NCBI GenBank assembly: GCA_020444175.1
Contig: JAHLLM010000029.1
Span: 1-64,000, forward strand
Source of the DNA: Desulfobulbaceae bacterium
Lineage (GTDB): Bacteria > Desulfobacterota > Desulfobulbia > Desulfobulbales > SURF-16
Direction: 5' to 3'
DNA length: 64,000 nt
In this document: in pieces, positions 41,804 to 56,675 of the stretch
How the letters are laid out: each line of letters starts with the position of its first letter
How positions within the stretch are numbered: the stretch's first letter is position 1
Notes under the pieces: generated by a model
Told to the model about the DNA's origin: nothing
Databases searched by the model: none
Seen by the model: only the letters and a program-made list of their open reading frames with translations
Position numbers and translations under genes: made by a program

Positions 41804-43903
41804 ATGAAAAGGAAGATGTTTTTTTTCGGTCTGGGAGCTCTTACCAGCTCCCTGATACTGTCGGGCTCCACCTTTGCGCAAGACACGTATCTGTCCAATC
41901 TGGATTCGATTATCAACAAGTGGCTGGGATCTGCCCATGCTGATGCCGATGCCGAGGCATTCTCCCACTGGGACGAAGATGGAGAAATTCCGACAAGTTG
42001 TGCCAGATGCCACAGCAGTTCAGGGTACCAGGACTATCTCGGTGCTGATGGGACAGCAACCGGGCAAATAGACAACGCAGCGCCAATCGGCGAAGTTGTT
42101 GAATGTCTCACCTGCCATAATGACTCAACATCCTATCTGGACGAGGTAACCTTTCCTTCAGGAATTACAATTACTGATTTAGGCCCGGAAGCCCGCTGCA
42201 TGGTCTGTCACCAAGGACGAGAATCCGGACTTGACGTTGATGCAGATATAGAGGATGCAGGTGTGACCAATGACGATGAAGTCTCCAGTGATCTGGGCTT
42301 TATCAATATCCATTACTTTGCCACCGCGGCAACCCTCTACGGAGGAGAAGTTAAAGGCGGCTACCAGTATGACGGCATGGTTTATGATCTCAAATTTGAC
42401 CATGTAGAGGGATACAATACCTGTATTGGATGCCATGATCAGCATTCCCTGGAAGTGAGAATAAATGACAGTGCCAGAATGAGCCAGTGTGATGATTGTC
42501 ATGCCAATGTTTCTGCCGAAGAAGACTTGCGGGACATACGGATGAACGGCTCCAGGGTCGACTATGACGGTGACGGCAATACCAGTGAGGGCATTGCCTA
42601 TGAGATTGAAACACTGCAGGTAAAACTCTACCAAGTTATCCAGCTCTATGCTGCCAATATGATAGGCTCTCCGATTATTTATGATACCACGTCTTACCCA
42701 TACTGGTTTATTGACAGCAATGCCAACGGGGCAGTGGATTTGGGCGAGGCCTCCTTCGGCAATAGGTATGGGTCTTGGTCCGCGCGTCTGGTCAAGGCCA
42801 CTTTCAATTACCAGGTCTCTTTAAAAGACCCGGGAGCCTTTGCTCACAACGCCAAATACATAATCGAGCTGCTCTACGATTCCATTATAGACGTCAATAA
42901 CGCCTTATCCATTTCAAATCAAATCGATACCAGCATCCTGAGCCGAGGTGACGGCACCCATTTTGACGGTTCAAAAGAGGCCTCCCGGCACTGGGACGAA
43001 GACGGTGAAGTTTCAGCAAGCTGCTCTAAATGCCATGGTAAAAACGGTCTGGCGGAGTTCCTGACCTACGGCAACACCAGATCCACTGAAATCAGGACAG
43101 ACGGCATGGCCTGCAGCAACTGCCATACCGTTGATTCTGACGACCGACCAGTTTTCACTGAAATACGCGATACCGGCAGCAGCGTAGCCTTCCCATCCGG
43201 AGATGAGGTCTCCCTGAACAACAGCAGCCAGCTGTGCATGAACTGCCATCAGGGACGAGAATCCGGGGTCGATGTGGATAATTCAATTGCTGAAAGCGAC
43301 TTCAGGTTTCTCAACATTCACTATTATCCTGCCGCCGCTGTATTTTTTGGAACAGATGTACGTGGAGGGTACGAATATACTGACAATGGTTATTCAAGTC
43401 AGAACCTTTTCCTCAGTCATCCTGCAGAGTTAAGCACTTGCACTGGGTGTCATGTTCAGGAAGACAATCAGGCGAAGCATGAGTTCGAGCCGTCACTTGA
43501 TGTCTGTAACTTTTGTCATACAGGGGACTCCTTTGAAACGCTGAGTGGTTCGCCCTCTGCAAATTATACAAGAATCCAAACACTTGGCGGGCAACTCTAT
43601 ACGGCATTGCAATCCTATGCAACGAATACCCTTGGAGCACCAATTGTTTATGACAGCCAATCATACCCATACTGGTTCGCGGACAGTAACGGCAACGGAG
43701 TGGTGGACAGTGGCGAAAACGGCAGCAGCAATCGGTACTCAAACTTTGACGCTAAATCCATGAAAGCGGCCTACAACTACCAGGTTTTCCAGAAAGAGCC
43801 TTGTGGATACATACACAACGGATCGTATATGAGCCAGTTGCTTTATGACTCCATTGCGAACCTGGGAGAGACACCTGCGGCAACGCGGCCATCGACAAAC
43901 TAA
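41804..43903 (+). CDS. Exported decahaem cytochrome c made of two duplicated pentahaem halves
   Basis: A 699-residue periplasmic or surface cytochrome. A signal peptide (LGALTSSLILSGSTFA) is followed by ten CxxCH sites: CARCH, CLTCH, CMVCH, CIGCH, CDDCH, then CSKCH, CSNCH, CMNCH, CTGCH, CNFCH. The two halves are clear repeats: HWDEDGE before the first site of each, CHQGRESG(L/V)DVD at the third, NIHY(F/Y) plus GGY(Q/E)Y after it, and SYPYWF(I/A)DSN near each end. It has no membrane anchor. The ATG follows GGAGGG. It sits upstream of an MtrA/MtrB-type pair and may be the soluble or outer-surface partner in electron transfer. Confidence 0.95.
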   Translation: MKRKMFFFGLGALTSSLILSGSTFAQDTYLSNLDSIINKWLGSAHADADAEAFSHWDEDGEIPTSCARCHSSSGYQDYLGADGTATGQIDNAAPIGEVVECLTCHNDSTSYLDEVTFPSGITITDLGPEARCMVCHQGRESGLDVDADIEDAGVTNDDEVSSDLGFINIHYFATAATLYGGEVKGGYQYDGMVYDLKFDHVEGYNTCIGCHDQHSLEVRINDSARMSQCDDCHANVSAEEDLRDIRMNGSRVDYDGDGNTSEGIAYEIETLQVKLYQVIQLYAANMIGSPIIYDTTSYPYWFIDSNANGAVDLGEASFGNRYGSWSARLVKATFNYQVSLKDPGAFAHNAKYIIELLYDSIIDVNNALSISNQIDTSILSRGDGTHFDGSKEASRHWDEDGEVSASCSKCHGKNGLAEFLTYGNTRSTEIRTDGMACSNCHTVDSDDRPVFTEIRDTGSSVAFPSGDEVSLNNSSQLCMNCHQGRESGVDVDNSIAESDFRFLNIHYYPAAAVFFGTDVRGGYEYTDNGYSSQNLFLSHPAELSTCTGCHVQEDNQAKHEFEPSLDVCNFCHTGDSFETLSGSPSANYTRIQTLGGQLYTALQSYATNTLGAPIVYDSQSYPYWFADSNGNGVVDSGENGSSNRYSNFDAKSMKAAYNYQVFQKEPCGYIHNGSYMSQLLYDSIANLGETPAATRPSTN

Positions 43904-43919
43904 GGAATGTTAAAACCGG

Positions 43920-43952
43920 AAAATGGCTGTCCACAGAGGGATGGCCATTTTT
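43920..43952 (+). terminator. Hairpin terminator after the 699-residue cytochrome
   Basis: An eight-bp stem (AAAATGGC with GCCATTTT), a 16-base loop that can pair further (GTCC with GGAT), and a T-rich 3' side. It may separate the cytochrome gene from the downstream pair. Confidence 0.6.
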
Positions 43953-44080
43953 CAAATACTGCCAAGTCCCTTACTGCCTGTAGCACCAGAAAACTACAGA
44001 GGAACGACTACCAGTTTCTAACTAAATGAAGAGAAGCCTTATTCGGCTTCATTCCATATTTTTGTGAGAAGGAGAAGAGT

Positions 44081-44962
44081 ATGCCCAACACAGGGAAAAA
44101 GAGTCTTTTATTAATTATTGTGATGACGCTTTTCTGGGGAGTATCTCCAGCCATGGAGGTCCAGGCCGACTCTATAGCCTGTGCAGACTGTCATGAAAAG
44201 ATCACCGCAGATTTCCAAGATTCCTACCATGGTCGAGCCTGGACAGGGAAAAAACATAGCTGCCAGTCCTGCCATGGAGATACGGCTCGTCACCTTGACG
44301 ACCCGTCTCAGGAATCCATATTATCCTTTGGTGAAAAATCTCGCCAAACTGCTGATGAACTCAACAAAATGTGCCTTGGCTGCCATGAGTCCTCTTCCCA
44401 TATTTCATTATGGGACATGAGCAAGCATAACAGTAATGACCTCGCCTGCATTAACTGCCACGATATACACACAAGAAAATCCGAAGTTGCGCAACCCAAA
44501 GTTTGTTTCAACTGCCACAGTTCAGTCCGCATGGATGCCGGTAAAATCTCCCACCATCCAATCGTTGAAGGAAAAATCGAGTGCAGTGACTGTCATAATA
44601 CCCATGGCAGCCTTTCCCACGGCATGCTGGTTGAAGACGACATCAATCAGCTCTGTTACCGCTGCCATGCTGAAAAAAGAGGACCTTTTGTCTGGGAACA
44701 TCCACCGGTTGAAGAAGACTGCTCCATTTGCCACGCTCCCCACGGCAGCAGACATGAAAATTTGATGAAAGAGAAGGTTTCCAACCTTTGCCAGGATTGC
44801 CATAATGCCAACCTCCATTCAGGACGCGCCTATGACGGGGATGCAGGTTTTGCCGCAACCGGAAGGGCAGGCAACATCGGCTTTATTGCCCGTTCCTGCC
44901 TCAATTGTCACGGCAATATTCACGGCAGCACCCATTTTGAAAACCACGTCTACACACGATAA
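44081..44962 (+). CDS. MtrA/DmsE-type decahaem cytochrome c
   Basis: A 293-residue periplasmic cytochrome with a signal peptide (LLLIIVMTLFWGVSPAME) and ten CxxCH motifs (CADCH, CQSCH, CLGCH, CINCH, CFNCH, CSDCH, CYRCH, CSICH, CQDCH, CLNCH). Size, haem number and distal His pattern match the MtrA/DmsE/PioA family, which threads through an MtrB-type barrel to wire the periplasm to the cell exterior. The next gene, 11 bases downstream, is such a barrel. The ATG has AAGGAGAAG upstream. Confidence 0.94.
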   Translation: MPNTGKKSLLLIIVMTLFWGVSPAMEVQADSIACADCHEKITADFQDSYHGRAWTGKKHSCQSCHGDTARHLDDPSQESILSFGEKSRQTADELNKMCLGCHESSSHISLWDMSKHNSNDLACINCHDIHTRKSEVAQPKVCFNCHSSVRMDAGKISHHPIVEGKIECSDCHNTHGSLSHGMLVEDDINQLCYRCHAEKRGPFVWEHPPVEEDCSICHAPHGSRHENLMKEKVSNLCQDCHNANLHSGRAYDGDAGFAATGRAGNIGFIARSCLNCHGNIHGSTHFENHVYTR

Positions 44963-44973
44963 GGGAGGCAAAG

Positions 44974-47007
44974 ATGAAAAAAGGTGTTTATTCGCTCGTT
45001 ATATTTTCCCTGCTTACCTCCCCGGCATTTGCTGCCGAAGATGAGGAAGCCAAGGTTCGGGGTTCTATTGAGGCTGGTTATCGTGTTGTCGATGATCAGG
45101 ACAACAACAGAGCTCATTTTATTGAATTCAAGGATAGAGATGACGATTTCTTCACGAGTTTCGACCTGTCCGTTCAAAAAGGATCCTACTATCTTGATTT
45201 CATGGGCAACGAACTGGGCCTTAACGACCAGTCCTACCTGCTCAAAGGCACTAATTATGGGAAATTTTCTTATGAGTTTTTCTATGAAGAAACCCCTCAT
45301 AATATGAGTTTTGATGCCAAAGCTCCATACACAGGAATCGGATCTCAGGATTTAGACATTGACAACAGTACCATCGGCTCAGTTGCCGATTGGTCCTCTT
45401 TCGACTATTCAGTGGATCGTAAAGAGTTTGGCGCCCAGGTGGAAATATCCATGGACACCCCGTTTTATGTTAATGTGGGCGTTCAGCGCCGCCAGCAGGA
45501 TGGCATCAAGCCCCTGGGAGGCGGAAGTTTTTGGCTGAATATGGAAATGCCGGAACCGGTTGATTACACCACCGATGACATTACTTTCCAGGGAGGCTAT
45601 AGAAACAAAAATCTGCATGCTTCGGTGCAAGGTTACTGGAGCACATTTGACAACACCAACAAATATCTTACCCAACCAAATACCGGTGAAAGCCAGACCC
45701 TTCCCCCGGACAACGACTACAGAAAACTGTCAGCGAACCTGAGCTGGCGTGGGCTGCCTTATCAATCCATGCTTGCTGTTCGCACCAGCTATTCCAAAAT
45801 AGAAAGCCATTTTTCCGTTGATGACCTTAACCTTACTGCACCAGCCGCGTTAAACACTGATACCTTTGATGGGGATGTCACCTATACCCAAGGCTCCATC
45901 GCTCTCTCATCCCGCCCCATTGCTGATTTGGACACCAAGATTTATTTCAATTTCCTGGACAAGGAAAATGACTCAAGTGTCATCCGCTATCAAGATGTGC
46001 GGGGGCTGGATGTCAGTAACGCCGACCAGATTTTTGACTATGAAAAAAATAACGCAGGTCTGGATGTCGGTTACGATCTGGCAAGACATACCAAGTTAGC
46101 TGCAGGCTACGAGTATCTGGATGTTGATCGCCGCAACCGTGACGACGCAGAAGCCAATACTGACCACAGTCTTTTCTTTCAGATCAAAAACACCAGCCTG
46201 GATTTTCTTACAGCAAAGCTCCGCTACAAGCGACTGGAACGAAACTCAGACTTTGACAACAAATCTGCAGGAGTCAACGACCCTACTGATGAAGATTATA
46301 TTAAACGTTATATAAGGCGCTATGATGCAACGGATAAGAGCATGGATGAGATCAAACTTTCCCTGGAGATTTATCCCATGGACCAGCTTGATTTCGGCTT
46401 TGAATACGCTTACAAAATCAATGACTATGATGAAACGAATCTTGGTCTTACCGAAGACAAGCACCATGAATTTTACGCAGACTTTGTCTGGCGAGCCGCG
46501 AAAAAAGTAACTCTGAGCGGCTTTGCCGGCTATGAAATGACGGAAGCCGACAGTAGCCATCGACAATTCGGAGCAGGCGATTCCGCCTCCATTGACGCAG
46601 TTCCTACGTCCACCTCCTTCAACTGGAGCAATGAAAGAGATGATGATTTTATCACCTATGGACTGGCCATAAATCTACCCGATATAATAGAAAAAGTGAG
46701 CCTTAATATTTCCTGGCAGTATCAAGAATCGGACGGAGAGATCAACTTCAGCAGTCAGGACGGTACACTTGAAGACATCAACCAATCCGACGATTATGAC
46801 AAGCAGGAATTAGAGATCAAAGCTATCTATGCCTTAAGGCAGGATACCGACATCACCCTTGGCTACCTCTACGAGAAGTATGACTATGACGATCTGCAAT
46901 ATGACGATTATGAGTACAGCCAAACAGGCAGCTATCTCACTGGAGCTTATTATGAACAGAGCTATGAGGCAAATGTCGGCTATCTCATGGTAGCCTATCG
47001 CTTTTAA
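44974..47007 (+). CDS. MtrB/PioB-family outer-membrane barrel
   Basis: A 677-residue exported protein with a signal peptide (SLVIFSLLTSPAFAA) and then a long series of amphipathic beta strands with acidic turns, typical of the 26-28-strand MtrB/PioB barrels. It ends NVGYLMVAYRF, with terminal Phe as needed for Bam insertion. It would sheath the decahaem cytochrome encoded just upstream (11-base gap, GGGAGG ribosome site) to form a porin-cytochrome conduit for extracellular electron exchange. The N-terminal CxxC motif of Shewanella MtrB is absent. Confidence 0.9.
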   Translation: MKKGVYSLVIFSLLTSPAFAAEDEEAKVRGSIEAGYRVVDDQDNNRAHFIEFKDRDDDFFTSFDLSVQKGSYYLDFMGNELGLNDQSYLLKGTNYGKFSYEFFYEETPHNMSFDAKAPYTGIGSQDLDIDNSTIGSVADWSSFDYSVDRKEFGAQVEISMDTPFYVNVGVQRRQQDGIKPLGGGSFWLNMEMPEPVDYTTDDITFQGGYRNKNLHASVQGYWSTFDNTNKYLTQPNTGESQTLPPDNDYRKLSANLSWRGLPYQSMLAVRTSYSKIESHFSVDDLNLTAPAALNTDTFDGDVTYTQGSIALSSRPIADLDTKIYFNFLDKENDSSVIRYQDVRGLDVSNADQIFDYEKNNAGLDVGYDLARHTKLAAGYEYLDVDRRNRDDAEANTDHSLFFQIKNTSLDFLTAKLRYKRLERNSDFDNKSAGVNDPTDEDYIKRYIRRYDATDKSMDEIKLSLEIYPMDQLDFGFEYAYKINDYDETNLGLTEDKHHEFYADFVWRAAKKVTLSGFAGYEMTEADSSHRQFGAGDSASIDAVPTSTSFNWSNERDDDFITYGLAINLPDIIEKVSLNISWQYQESDGEINFSSQDGTLEDINQSDDYDKQELEIKAIYALRQDTDITLGYLYEKYDYDDLQYDDYEYSQTGSYLTGAYYEQSYEANVGYLMVAYRF

Positions 47008-51573: not shown

Positions 51574-53412
51574 ATGCCTTCAAAAAACCAAAGCCATCCT
51601 CACCAAAAAACAGCTTTAAGATCTGAACTCCGGGAGCAATTAAAATTACATTCTGAAAAATGCATTGAATGCAAACTGTGTCGAAAGGAATGTAAATTTC
51701 TGCGTAAATACGGCAATCCCAAACAGATAGCCGATACGTACGCCCCAAGCTCTGCAAAAGATCTGGCACTGCCTTTCGAATGCAGCCTCTGCGGGCTGTG
51801 TGCAGCAGTCTGCCCGGTGGGGGTGAATCCCGCAGCCATGTTTCTGGAAATGCGTCGCGAGGCGGTTGCCGCCGGAGGACAGGATTTCGCTGACTATGGC
51901 GTTATCTTAAATTATGAAAAAAGAGGAACATCCAGGCGCTATTCATATTATGCCCTGCCGGAAAACTGTGATACCGTGTTGTTTCCTGGTTGCGCTCTTC
52001 CCGGCACACGACCCGACAAGGTAAAGGGCCTTTTTGATCACCTCCAAAAGACATTTCCCGCACTCGGCATCGTGCTGGACTGCTGTACCAAGCCGTCTCA
52101 TGACCTGGGCCGTGATAGCCATTTTCATGCCATGTTCACCGAAATGAAGGAATACCTTCGGCAACATGGCGTGAAAAACGTTCTGGTTGCCTGCCCCAAC
52201 TGCTACAGGGTTTTTAATGAGTACGGAAGCGGCCTGCATGTCAAAACCGTCTACGAATATCTGGCAGATACCTCACTGCCCCAAACCGCTCATATTCCTG
52301 CAACTGTGACGATCCATGACCCATGTGGAACCAGAAATGAAAAACAGGTTCACACTGCCATCCGCAGGCTGGCAACGAACAAGTCCTTAACAGTCGAAGA
52401 AATGAAACATCATGGACCGAAAACCATCTGCTGCGGCGAAGGCGGTTCCGTGGGCTGCATTAATCCCGCTTATTCCAGGAACTGGGGAATCCGCCGGAAA
52501 GAAGAAGCCGCTGGCCAGAGAATTCTCACCTATTGTGCCGGATGTGCCAACTTTTTAGGTGGGCTGAATCCAACCAGTCATATTCTTGATGTGCTTTTTG
52601 AGCCTGAAAAGGCCTTGGCCGGTCAGGCAAAAGTATCAAAAGCCCCCTGGACGTACCTCAACCGATTGCGCCTCAAAAGCTATTTCAAAAAGAACATCAA
52701 TGCAGCAGTATCCCGGGAAAGAACGTTTAGCGGCGAAAACAGGCCTCAGGGCGGGATGCTCAAGCGCCTTGCCATTCTTTCAGCTCTTATCGGTTTCATC
52801 ATTGCCGTTCGCATGACAGGCGCCACTCAGTATATTGAGCAGGAAAAACTTCGGGCTTTAATTGAAGGCTATGGGGCAATGGCACCGGTTATCTTCATGC
52901 TGACATATGCCGTGGCACCAGCTCTTTTTCTTCCCGGGCTCCCCATTACCATAGTCGGCGGCATTCTTTTCGGTCCGTTCTGGGGGGTTGTCTACAGCAT
53001 CACCGGTGCAACAACAGGAGCCTGTATCGCTTTTCTTATTTCGCGATATGTAGGCAGGGAATGGATAGAAGGGAAACTGAAAAGCCCCAAGTGGAAGCAG
53101 CTTGATACCATGGTTGAACAACATGGCTGGAAAGCGGTTGCCTTTACCCGCCTCATCCCTCTCTTTCCTTTTAATCTCCTTAATTATGCTTTTGGCCTTA
53201 CCAAAGTCAAATTCCTCCACTATGCCCTTGCCTCATTTATCTGCATGCTGCCGGCCTGCATCGCTTTTATTGTTTTTTCAAGCTCGCTGCTTGAGATTAT
53301 TAAGGGCAATGTGACGCCTTCTTTTATATTCGGCATTGTGCTTATCATTACTGTCTCTATGATACCCTTTATTTATAACCGTTTTAAAGCCCAAAAAGAG
53401 AAAACAAGTTGA
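51574..53412 (+). CDS. Fusion of HdrD/GlpC-type Fe-S reductase domain to a VTT (DedA/TVP38-like) membrane domain
   Basis: A 612-residue inner-membrane protein. Residues ~30-90 hold two [4Fe-4S] motifs (CIECKLCRKEC and CSLCGLCAAVCP). Residues ~130-350 hold two CCG-type cysteine-rich domains (DCCTKPSHDLG; CCGEGG..C and CAGC), as in heterodisulfide reductase HdrD and GlpC. From ~395 a VTT membrane domain follows (LPGLPITIVGGILFGPFWG, RYVGREW, FTRLIPLFPFNLLNYAFG). The fusion suggests that a thiol/disulfide or metal redox step is joined to transport. It is the first gene of the plus-strand cluster; its stop overlaps the next gene by four bases. The ribosome site is weak. Confidence 0.9.
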   Translation: MPSKNQSHPHQKTALRSELREQLKLHSEKCIECKLCRKECKFLRKYGNPKQIADTYAPSSAKDLALPFECSLCGLCAAVCPVGVNPAAMFLEMRREAVAAGGQDFADYGVILNYEKRGTSRRYSYYALPENCDTVLFPGCALPGTRPDKVKGLFDHLQKTFPALGIVLDCCTKPSHDLGRDSHFHAMFTEMKEYLRQHGVKNVLVACPNCYRVFNEYGSGLHVKTVYEYLADTSLPQTAHIPATVTIHDPCGTRNEKQVHTAIRRLATNKSLTVEEMKHHGPKTICCGEGGSVGCINPAYSRNWGIRRKEEAAGQRILTYCAGCANFLGGLNPTSHILDVLFEPEKALAGQAKVSKAPWTYLNRLRLKSYFKKNINAAVSRERTFSGENRPQGGMLKRLAILSALIGFIIAVRMTGATQYIEQEKLRALIEGYGAMAPVIFMLTYAVAPALFLPGLPITIVGGILFGPFWGVVYSITGATTGACIAFLISRYVGREWIEGKLKSPKWKQLDTMVEQHGWKAVAFTRLIPLFPFNLLNYAFGLTKVKFLHYALASFICMLPACIAFIVFSSSLLEIIKGNVTPSFIFGIVLIITVSMIPFIYNRFKAQKEKTS

Positions 53413-54053
53413 ATCAGCAAGACCGGGCGCTTTCGCATAATTTCAAAAAATCCCTAACAGTTAAGGCGGCAATTCTCCTTCTACTGGCATGCCTCCTTTT
53501 TATTGTTATTTTTCTGGTCAAACGCTATTTTTATATCCTTGATGCCTATGTGTATACCTGGGAATTTCACCTTCTCTTTGCAGTGAATAATCTCAAAAAA
53601 GCAAATCTTGAACTCTACACTGAGTATTTACAATCCTTGGGCGCTTTGGGTTCTTTGCCTTTTCTTTTTTTGGCCCACTCCATTCAGAATGTTTATCTCC
53701 CCTTTTCCAAGCACATTTTATTTGCCGCATCAACCCAGGCCTTTGGATTTCCCATTGCAATCGTTGCCAGCCTTCTTTCCTTTTTAATATTAGGCTGCAC
53801 TTCCTATGGCATTGGCAATTTTTTCCTTGGAGACTTGGTACCCCTGGTCAGTGGGGAAAAATATAAAAAGTTCAGAAAAAAAATGACGGTTAGCGCTTTA
53901 TTCTTCCTGCCGGCAACCTTTGCTGTTCCTGCAATTCCAATTTCTCTTCTTGCTCTGCTCAGCGCCTTTCTGAAAATCCCTTTTATACGAACAATACAAT
54001 TTATGGCTATCGGATTTTCCATAAGAATTATCTGGCTCGCTGTGGCTGGATAG
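53409..54053 (+). CDS. Small VTT-like membrane protein (YdjZ-like)
   Basis: A 214-residue membrane protein with about five helices (near 20-38, 80-95, 110-135, 160-185 and 195-212). The arrangement, including TVSALFFLPATFAVPAIPISL, resembles a diverged VTT domain such as YdjX/YdjZ of E. coli, but the canonical FxxxRFIP-type motif is weak, so the family call is tentative. It starts at TTG 53409, which overlaps the stop of the upstream gene; no suitable ATG exists, so translation is coupled. Confidence 0.7.
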   Translation: MNQQDRALSHNFKKSLTVKAAILLLLACLLFIVIFLVKRYFYILDAYVYTWEFHLLFAVNNLKKANLELYTEYLQSLGALGSLPFLFLAHSIQNVYLPFSKHILFAASTQAFGFPIAIVASLLSFLILGCTSYGIGNFFLGDLVPLVSGEKYKKFRKKMTVSALFFLPATFAVPAIPISLLALLSAFLKIPFIRTIQFMAIGFSIRIIWLAVAG

Positions 54054-54087
54054 AATTTTCTTGAATAACAATATCAGGAGATCAAAC

Positions 54088-54969
54088 ATGAAAACTGAGA
54101 ACGAAACAAACTGTTCCTGTGGTTGCTGTTCACAGGACTCAAAATCCAATCTTATCAGAAAACGTGAAGTTTCAATGGATAACAATGCCGCAACTCAAGG
54201 AGGCATGACCCGCGCGGAATTTCTTAAAGTGGTCGGCCTCGGTATGGTTGGTTTAAGTACTATTCCAGGAACAAAGGCCTTTGCTGCCGTAGAAAAAAAC
54301 AGCAATGTCAAGGTTATCCAGGGGAAAAAAGACCGTATGGTTGTTGATCTCGGCAACAGAGAAATCAGAATATCAGCCGATGTGACAAAAGATCCCTCCA
54401 AACCTGCAGTGGTTGATTGGGGAAGGCGATTTCAGGCTTTTTTCGGCTGTTACGGAGGCAAAATGGAAAAATGGTTTGTTTTCAGCACCGATGTTTCCCG
54501 AACAGATATCAATAACGCCATTCAGGAGCTTGGTATCACCTCCAGGAGGCATATTCCCATGAGCGAGGTTGAGCAGAGAAAAGGCCTGAAAGCGACCACA
54601 ACCATAGAAGATTATCTTACTGGTGATCCCGTCATTGTCACGGTTCGCTTTGAAAAGGATGGCAAAATTGTTGAAACTGCCCTGGAAGATCTTATTGAAG
54701 AAAAGATAATGGTTGATGGTGCCGAAGTGATTAAGCCGTATACCCCCCACTGGATCTATCATGGCACAGCGGAGGAAATTGCCTTCCCTTCAGGCTGCTG
54801 CGTCTGCCCCTCGGACTGCAACGGCGGCATCATAACCGATAATGTCCTGCCGCTGAAAACCACAGTCAATTATTACAGGGTGAATTGGGAAAGAATGCCT
54901 GCAGTGGGTTCCAAGGCGGAAGTTGTCATCAGATCAATCTACAGCTCAACCCAGCACGCCACCATTTAG
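54088..54969 (+). CDS. YdjY-like exported protein with N-terminal CSCGCC motif
   Basis: A 293-residue protein. A Cys-rich leader (NCSCGCCS at ~8-15) precedes a Tat-like export signal (MTRAEFLKVVGLGMVG, ~41-70), which has only one Arg (TRAEFLK) and is cleaved near KAFA. The mature part has a YdjY-type fold (KVIQGKKDRMVVD; LVVD-type strands; later YHGTAEEIAF) and a second Cys cluster, SGCCVCPSDCNGG, near 250. YdjY is encoded between two VTT proteins in E. coli; here it follows two as well. The ATG at 54088 has AGGAGA upstream; an internal ATG at 54175 would remove the Cys leader. Confidence 0.82.
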   Translation: MKTENETNCSCGCCSQDSKSNLIRKREVSMDNNAATQGGMTRAEFLKVVGLGMVGLSTIPGTKAFAAVEKNSNVKVIQGKKDRMVVDLGNREIRISADVTKDPSKPAVVDWGRRFQAFFGCYGGKMEKWFVFSTDVSRTDINNAIQELGITSRRHIPMSEVEQRKGLKATTTIEDYLTGDPVIVTVRFEKDGKIVETALEDLIEEKIMVDGAEVIKPYTPHWIYHGTAEEIAFPSGCCVCPSDCNGGIITDNVLPLKTTVNYYRVNWERMPAVGSKAEVVIRSIYSSTQHATI

Positions 54970-55104: not shown

Positions 55105-55701
55105 ATGCAAATCAACAGTATCTATTCAAGACTTACTTCGGCGGAGCGCTCCCTGAGAGACGAAGTCATGGCCCGGATGATTAGTCAACACAAGCCAGTC
55201 GATGTCGACTCCTTAACTGGCAGTGACTCATTAAAAATAGAAACCGTCTCTTCACTCATTAATAAAAAAGTTCTGGTCATAGGTCAGAATGGTTCTATAG
55301 ACTTTTCATATCCAGTCTCCGCTCTGCCTTCCAGTCACCGGGTAACTCTCAATGATGGAAAATGGTTTTATGCCATGTGTGCGGTTGATGCCCTGGGATG
55401 TGCTTTTACTTTTCGGCAGGACACGAAAATATCCTCCAAATGCCACTATTGCAAGGAACCAATCGATGTGCAGATAGTTGAAGGAGAAATCGCCTCACTG
55501 GATCCGCCTGAAACCCATGTCCTTCATGTTGATCTGAGCAAATTTGATGATTGGTCGGCAACCTGCTGAAATATCATGAATTTCTTCTGTACGAAGAAAC
55601 ATTATGAAAAATGGCTGGCATCAGAGACAATTTCAAAGCCCCATTACTGTTTAACAGCCCAGGAAGCCCTGCATGTGGCTAAAATGCTTTTTGGGCGGTA
55701 A
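55105..55701 (+). CDS. MerB-like alkylmercury lyase selenoprotein (UGA = Sec155)
   Basis: MerB cleaves C-Hg bonds by protonolysis with Cys96, Asp99 and Cys159. This protein has Cys92 and Asp95 in YAMCAVDALG, matching AWCALD, and an in-frame TGA at 55567-55569 (residue 155). It aligns as UNIMNFF with the MerB segment CNHVHFF, so the UGA replaces catalytic Cys159; all three residues keep the same offset of four. Homology continues after the UGA (KKHYEKWLA, LTAQEALHVAKML). A hairpin at 55581-55599 fits a bacterial SECIS. Product: 198 residues. I choose the ATG at 55105 because a start at 54991 would run through a stable hairpin. The substrate could be organomercury or another organometal(loid). 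Confidence 0.8.
55581..55599 (+). promoter_or_regulatory. SECIS-like hairpin after the merB-like UGA
   Basis: A perfect seven-bp stem (TTTCTTC with GAAGAAA) and a five-base TGTAC loop. The loop starts 19 bases after the UGA and contains GU, as SelB-binding loops do. Confidence 0.7.
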
Positions 55702-55817: not shown

Positions 55818-56675
55818 ATGGCTGATCTTAAAAAGTGTAATATCAATTCAAGCTGTTGACCACCAGCCACAGAAGCTGGCGGTCGCCAGGATGTTTCTCC
55901 GCAGTCAACATGTGCTCTTAGCCAAGTAAATGGCCATGATTTCAGCCCAGAAGAACTCCTGCAGATTCGCAGTACCATAAGAATAAAATACGCGGAAGTC
56001 TCCATTTCCGCTGAAGGAAAATTTCAGTACCTTACAGGCAAGAAAGGCGCTGAGGCACTCGGCTATGCACCTTCAGCCTTAAAAGACATCCAACCTGAAC
56101 TGGTAAACGCGTTTTGCGGCGTGGGCAATCCATTTTCCATTGAAGACATAAAGCAGGGAAGCACTCTACTTGATATAGGCTGTGGGGCAGGATTTGATTT
56201 ATTTATTGCCAGTAAGCTCACAGGCCCTGGAGGTCAGGTTTACGGTATTGATTTAACCCAGGAGATGATTGACAGAGCCCAAAAGAATATTAAAAAGCTC
56301 GACACCACAAACATCACGATAAAACATGTTGATTCCGAGAAAATACCTTTTAAGGACAATATGTTCGACGTGGTCATTTCAAACGGCGTCATCAACCTCT
56401 CGCCCTGCAAGCAGGATCTTTTTCAAGAAATCAAGCGGGTTTTAAAGCCAGGAGGCCGACTTCAGTTCGCCGACATTGTAGCAGAAAACGAATTGCCTTC
56501 AAATCTGACAGGGAGCCTTGAAGCCTGGGCACAGTGAATAGGCGGCACGATTCCGGTCAGGGATCAGATAAGCTTAATGAAACAAGCCGGCTTCTCAGAT
56601 GTTGCCTATCTCGGCACAACAGGCACCAGCACTTCGAAATATACTATTGGCGCTTTGTTTCGGGCTGTTAAATGA
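55818..56675 (+). CDS. ArsM-like SAM methyltransferase selenoprotein with two UGA codons (Sec14, Sec240)
   Basis: Read through two in-frame TGA codons (55857-55859 and 56535-56537), this frame gives a full-length 285-residue class I methyltransferase. Features: N-terminal KKCNINSSCU; a mixed domain (~40-90); FCGVGNPF; SAM motif I LLDIGCGAGFD (~110); a VVISNGVINL core; RVLKPGG; and C-terminal WAQUIGG, which aligns with the conserved WAGC(I/V) cysteine of ArsM-type enzymes. The tail RDQISLMKQAGF also fits. The ArsM Cys174 position is Gly, so arsenite is not certain to be the substrate. GAGGGTG precedes the ATG. Hairpins with GGUC loops follow both UGAs. Confidence 0.82.
55876..55889 (+). promoter_or_regulatory. 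SECIS-like hairpin after the first ArsM-like UGA
   Basis: A perfect five-bp stem (CTGGC with GCCAG) and a GGTC loop starting 22 bases after the UGA. GGUC is the SelB-contacting loop of E. coli fdhF. An alternative, overlapping stem (CCAGC with GCTGG, 55863-55879) sits closer to the UGA. Confidence 0.65.
56549..56565 (+). promoter_or_regulatory. SECIS-like hairpin after the second ArsM-like UGA
   Basis: A six-bp stem (GATTCC with GGGATC, one U-G pair) and a GGTCA loop starting 18 bases after the UGA. The GGUC loop is shared with the first site. Confidence 0.68.

Follow-up and report, generated by a model that had tools for sequence, protein, structure and literature searches.

In MerB, mercury is bound by Cys96 and Cys159, and Asp99 donates a proton. 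Selenocysteine (Sec) has already been described in proteins of this kind: a MerB-like selenoprotein is among those of a 2022 review (PMC9312934), and a 2026 review (PMC13188914) describes the Sec-assisted organometallic operon (SAO) and includes SaoL, with its 'CU' motif, among the selenoproteins; MerB is not named in the main text of the 2008 GOS paper. In the window that we analysed, a stretch of 64,000 nucleotides from a Desulfobulbaceae bacterium, ORF read-through, profile searches and a structural model outlined a saoL-like coding sequence on the forward strand (55105–55701), predicted to encode a MerB-fold selenoprotein of 198 amino acids with Sec at residue 155. Like the SaoL of SAO operons, the protein scored above the equivalog cut-off of NF040728 ('MerB-like organometallic lyase SaoL'; 172.4 bits against 140), keeps the Cys96 and Asp99 columns, carries the predicted Sec in a CU motif and groups in the tree with the SaoL of genomes G130 and G503. 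The original prediction had proposed a MerB with Sec at the Cys159 position and knew of no described example; the family and the position of the residue held, whereas its undescribed status is ruled out by the NF040728 match and by both reviews. The window gene belongs, as an ordinary member, to a selenoprotein family that is known but little studied; what is unusual is its gene setting.

The reading frame runs from the ATG at 55105 through an in-frame TGA at 55567–55569 (residue 155) to the TAA at 55699–55701; an ATG further upstream in this frame (54991) is another candidate start and would lengthen the product. When read through, the product matched PF03243 (MerB) with 103.5 bits over residues 72–197, which covers almost the whole profile and exceeds the gathering score of 27, compared with 64.7 bits for the part preceding the TGA alone; since reading through raises the score, the likeness to MerB continues over the 43 residues that follow the UGA. 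In the alignment Cys92, Asp95, Cys113 and residue 155 fell on Cys96, Asp99, Cys117 and Cys159 of MerB. The codons of Cys92 to Asp95 occupy 55378–55389, the recoded codon lies within the motif SATC-UGA-NIMNFF, both on the forward strand, and 63 residues separate the two catalytic positions in the window protein, as in MerB. Congruently with what had been predicted, the frame stays in sense beyond the TGA with a MerB-like remainder, and Cys92, Asp95 and the UGA keep the MerB spacing.

The closest solved structures by sequence were MerB2 (5c17) and MerB. An AlphaFold2 model of the window protein made with 33 family sequences (pLDDT 92.7) matched Hg-bound MerB2 with a Z of 22.8 over 193 residues and the MerB crystal structures with a Z of about 20, and the predicted fold is that of MerB. 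The likeness to MerB and MerB2 (PF03243; PDB 3f2f, 5c17) extends to the fold, the Cys96 and Asp99 columns and the spacing to residue 159, whereas the window protein has a predicted Sec for Cys at 159, an identity of about 17–20% and scores far below the cut-offs of the classical MerB models (69.6 against 193 for NF009710 and 60.9 against 200 bits for NF033555).

The same UGA is found in three genomes of the same order (G242, G243 and G130) and in two others of the same phylum (G379 and G503), which makes the codon common to six SaoL-clade genomes, the window included, at 42–55% protein identity. A scan of genome contigs with the window protein as sole query confirmed no relatives. The window holds 11 TGA-interrupted open stretches without other ORFs; the saoL-like gene alone showed a recognised domain across the TGA, the other candidates being judged by eye. 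Folding, shuffling and comparison with relatives outlined a SECIS-like hairpin on the forward strand (55574–55607), in which a 7-bp upper stem stands on a 6-bp lower stem and the loop UGUAC (55588–55592) starts 18 nt after the UGA. Its stability of −9.8 kcal/mol (z −3.05) was equalled by 1 of 200 shuffles, and across the six SaoL-clade sequences 89.7% of the cells were paired, against 38–65% when the structure was slid by 1–3 columns, with slight covariation. The window genome contains selA (621.9 bits), selB (367.8), tRNA-Sec (67.2) and selD (379.1). Thus, the seven-bp hairpin at SECIS distance, the sel genes in the genome and the column of Cys or Sec throughout the aligned homologues, to which the original prediction had pointed, were all found, and none of the observations that it had named as counting against it turned up. 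The selD of this genome has an in-frame TGA of its own (L194; G000:C79:89271–90194, minus strand) and for this reason is probably a selenoprotein itself. From conservation and homology, the machinery and the hairpin, we infer that the UGA at 55567–55569 is translated as selenocysteine; by all the sequence evidence, the window gene is a selenocysteine MerB homologue.

In the window genome saoL lies outside its usual gene cluster. In G130 it is found with saoA, saoE, saoX, saoC and saoB and in G503 with saoA, saoE, saoT and saoD, and both genomes hold a saoP with its own TGA (348 and 396 bits, respectively, against the NF040733 cut-off of 295). Unlike the SAO system, the window genome has no SaoP above the cut-off (best match 66.8 bits), as is also the case for G242, G243 and G379 in the NF040733 search, and the neighbours of saoL are not SAO transport genes. 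Instead, three conserved genes lie upstream on the forward strand, encoding an Fe-S/cysteine-rich (CCG)/VTT membrane protein (51574–53412; 77% identical in G242), a VTT-type membrane protein (53409–54053; sub-threshold Pfam match, 42% identity in G242) and a YdjY-domain protein with a Tat-like signal and a CCVCPSDC motif (54061–54969; 76% identical in G242). The order of these genes followed by saoL is the same in G242, and the short contig of G243 shows YdjY and then saoL, a gene-order link drawn from two or three related genomes. The Fe-S part of the 51574–54969 cluster also matches NF045663 ('diclust_near_Sec'), a model named for its proximity to selenoproteins, with 225 bits, below the cut-off. 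Elsewhere in the window (41804–47007), an MtrB/PioB outer-membrane porin comes after multihaem cytochromes, and together they likely form an extracellular electron-transfer cluster.

The next gene downstream of saoL, 116 bp away on the forward strand, encodes an ArsM-like methyltransferase (55818–56675) with two in-frame TGAs, one at 55857–55859 in an N-terminal UPP motif and the other at 56535–56537 in WAQUIGG. The latter is a known UxxG site, while the N-terminal UPPxxxxGG motif is outside the NCBIfam models; the two motifs occur together in over 20 relatives within the class, and the gene is a separate selenoprotein candidate. A conserved saoL-ArsM operon is not supported, because the two genes are on different contigs in G242 and G243.

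To place the window protein in the wider family, we built an alignment of 65 MerB-like proteins from genomes, with MerB and MerB2 as references. The Cys96 and Cys159 columns contained only Cys or UGA, in the combinations UGA/UGA (40 proteins), Cys/UGA (9) and Cys/Cys (18, two reference proteins included). All 89 in-frame UGAs of the 65 genomic homologues fell in one of these two columns, a count that applies to the MerB domain since the upstream ORF extension was stopped at TGA. The double-UGA genes form two clades, B with Glu and C with Asp at position 99; examples are found at L047:531–1235, L054:1279–1992, L075:941–1681 and L080:1182–1943 (minus strand). When these two columns are left out of the tree, the double-UGA state needs two changes and the Cys/UGA state four, on a topology with numerous weakly resolved forks and with long branches that join. 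A GTDB genome scan with clade B returned 150 relatives; of these, 80 were kept (L102–L181), and every one of them carries both UGAs. Clades B and C are mainly from Desulfobacterota, and also from MAGs labelled Dehalococcoidia and others; clade B was found in Olavius symbionts and in MAGs labelled Spirochaetes as well, with MAG labels that may be wrong. Every UGA-bearing genome tested has selA, and the two of 58 genomes without it (G324 and G346) both hold Cys/Cys forms. At column 96, 31 of 40 UGA codons against 2 of 25 Cys codons are followed by a hairpin whose loop has G in its first two positions; the two codon types differ less at column 159 (45 of 49 against 10 of 16).

Clades B and C resemble the window protein in the UGA at the Cys159 column and, judging from a clade B model (pLDDT 89.2, Z 17.8 to 5c17), in the MerB fold, and differ from it in a UGA at the Cys96 column too and in the Glu (B) or Asp (C) at 99. 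None of three clade B/C members reached an NCBIfam cut-off; they matched the SaoL/MerB models only, far below the cut-offs, which argues against their being MbdU or a different double selenoprotein that already has a name. Models of double-selenocysteine MerB forms are absent from NCBIfam, and we found no paper on them in a search whose scope excluded Haft and Gwadz (2023) and Haft and Tolstoy (2025); the double-selenocysteine homologues are apparently a larger, undescribed set. Two further sequences, L045 with Cys and L065 with UGA at the Cys159 column, are nearly identical otherwise; L065 is cut in its 3' part by the contig end, and the difference may be due to sequencing error close to that end, or else to recent exchange of Cys and Sec.

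In a phylum sample of 395 genomes, HgcA was above the cut-off in 18 of the 27 genomes with a two-UGA gene against 95 of the 368 others (Fisher p 2.3e-5). The gene for mercury methylation, hgcA, is thus commoner where double-UGA genes are found, an association that is a lead only because these are raw genome counts with phylogeny, completeness and habitat uncontrolled. The profile search found no HgcA above the cut-off in the window genome, and we rejected the idea that the window organism is a mercury methylator. On balance, we consider it probable that the window protein stands at the single-Sec end of a series in which the catalytic Cys of MerB became Sec several times, and that clades B and C are undescribed double-selenol proteins handling organomercury or mercury in hgcA-enriched genomes.

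With a probability of roughly 0.7, sequence and analogy suggest that the product of the window gene is a cytoplasmic organometal lyase with a MerB fold, which belongs to the SaoL clade, has Sec155 at the Cys159 position and probably works with the products of the upstream genes. Sec incorporation at the UGA would put a selenolate at this position. By analogy with MerB, Cys92 and Sec155 would together bind the metal atom of the substrate, an organometal that is most likely R-Hg+, and Asp95 would then protonate the carbon leaving group, so that R-H departs and the metal ion stays bridged by S and Se. Compared with a thiol, a selenolate is the softer and more acidic group and should therefore bind mercury more readily at neutral pH. 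The original prediction had likewise proposed tight Hg binding, together with a changed substrate range (C-Hg, C-As, C-Se, C-Te), and both may follow from a selenolate at this site. As the genome has no SAO-type permease SaoP, gene order points to the Fe-S/CCG-VTT, VTT and YdjY proteins as the probable partners, and not to a dedicated importer.

A Sec-containing MerB-fold protein could also act on another compound (organo-As, -Sn, -Te or -Se), or leave organomercury uncleaved and only bind and traffic a soft metal, Hg(II) for example. The SAO literature has an organometal with no proven substrate, an ArsM-like selenoprotein candidate lies 116 bp downstream and the genome has no HgcA, all of which fit this alternative, but the columns of the MerB catalytic triad are all preserved (C/D/U) and the ArsM gene is unlinked to saoL in the relatives that have both; we regard it as rather unlikely, and the lyase reading as the better one. 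A reading of the TGA as a Trp codon is not favoured, because UGAs are restricted to the Cys columns and the genome has the full Sec machinery. Finally, although other genes do use TGA as an ordinary stop and the NF040728 model ends at the UGA point (159/159), a true stop, a sequencing error or a pseudogene leaving a functional product of 154 residues is highly improbable and was rejected on the PF03243 read-through score, the alignment and the UGA columns, given the strong MerB homology of the 43 further residues, the codon common to six genomes at such protein divergence, UGAs confined to two catalytic Cys columns, and the full Sec machinery of the window genome. Since the NF040728 model ends there, annotated relatives may be cut at the UGA.

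The window gene places SaoL, a catalogued, predicted lyase, in a genome that lacks the SAO permease, an indication that this lyase can function with different partners. Across the family, Sec appears to occur repeatedly in anaerobes at one or both of the positions by which MerB holds mercury. If this is true, bacteria capable of making methylmercury may also have a protein that uses selenium to bind or break organomercury, and this would bear on the net methylmercury level in sediments.
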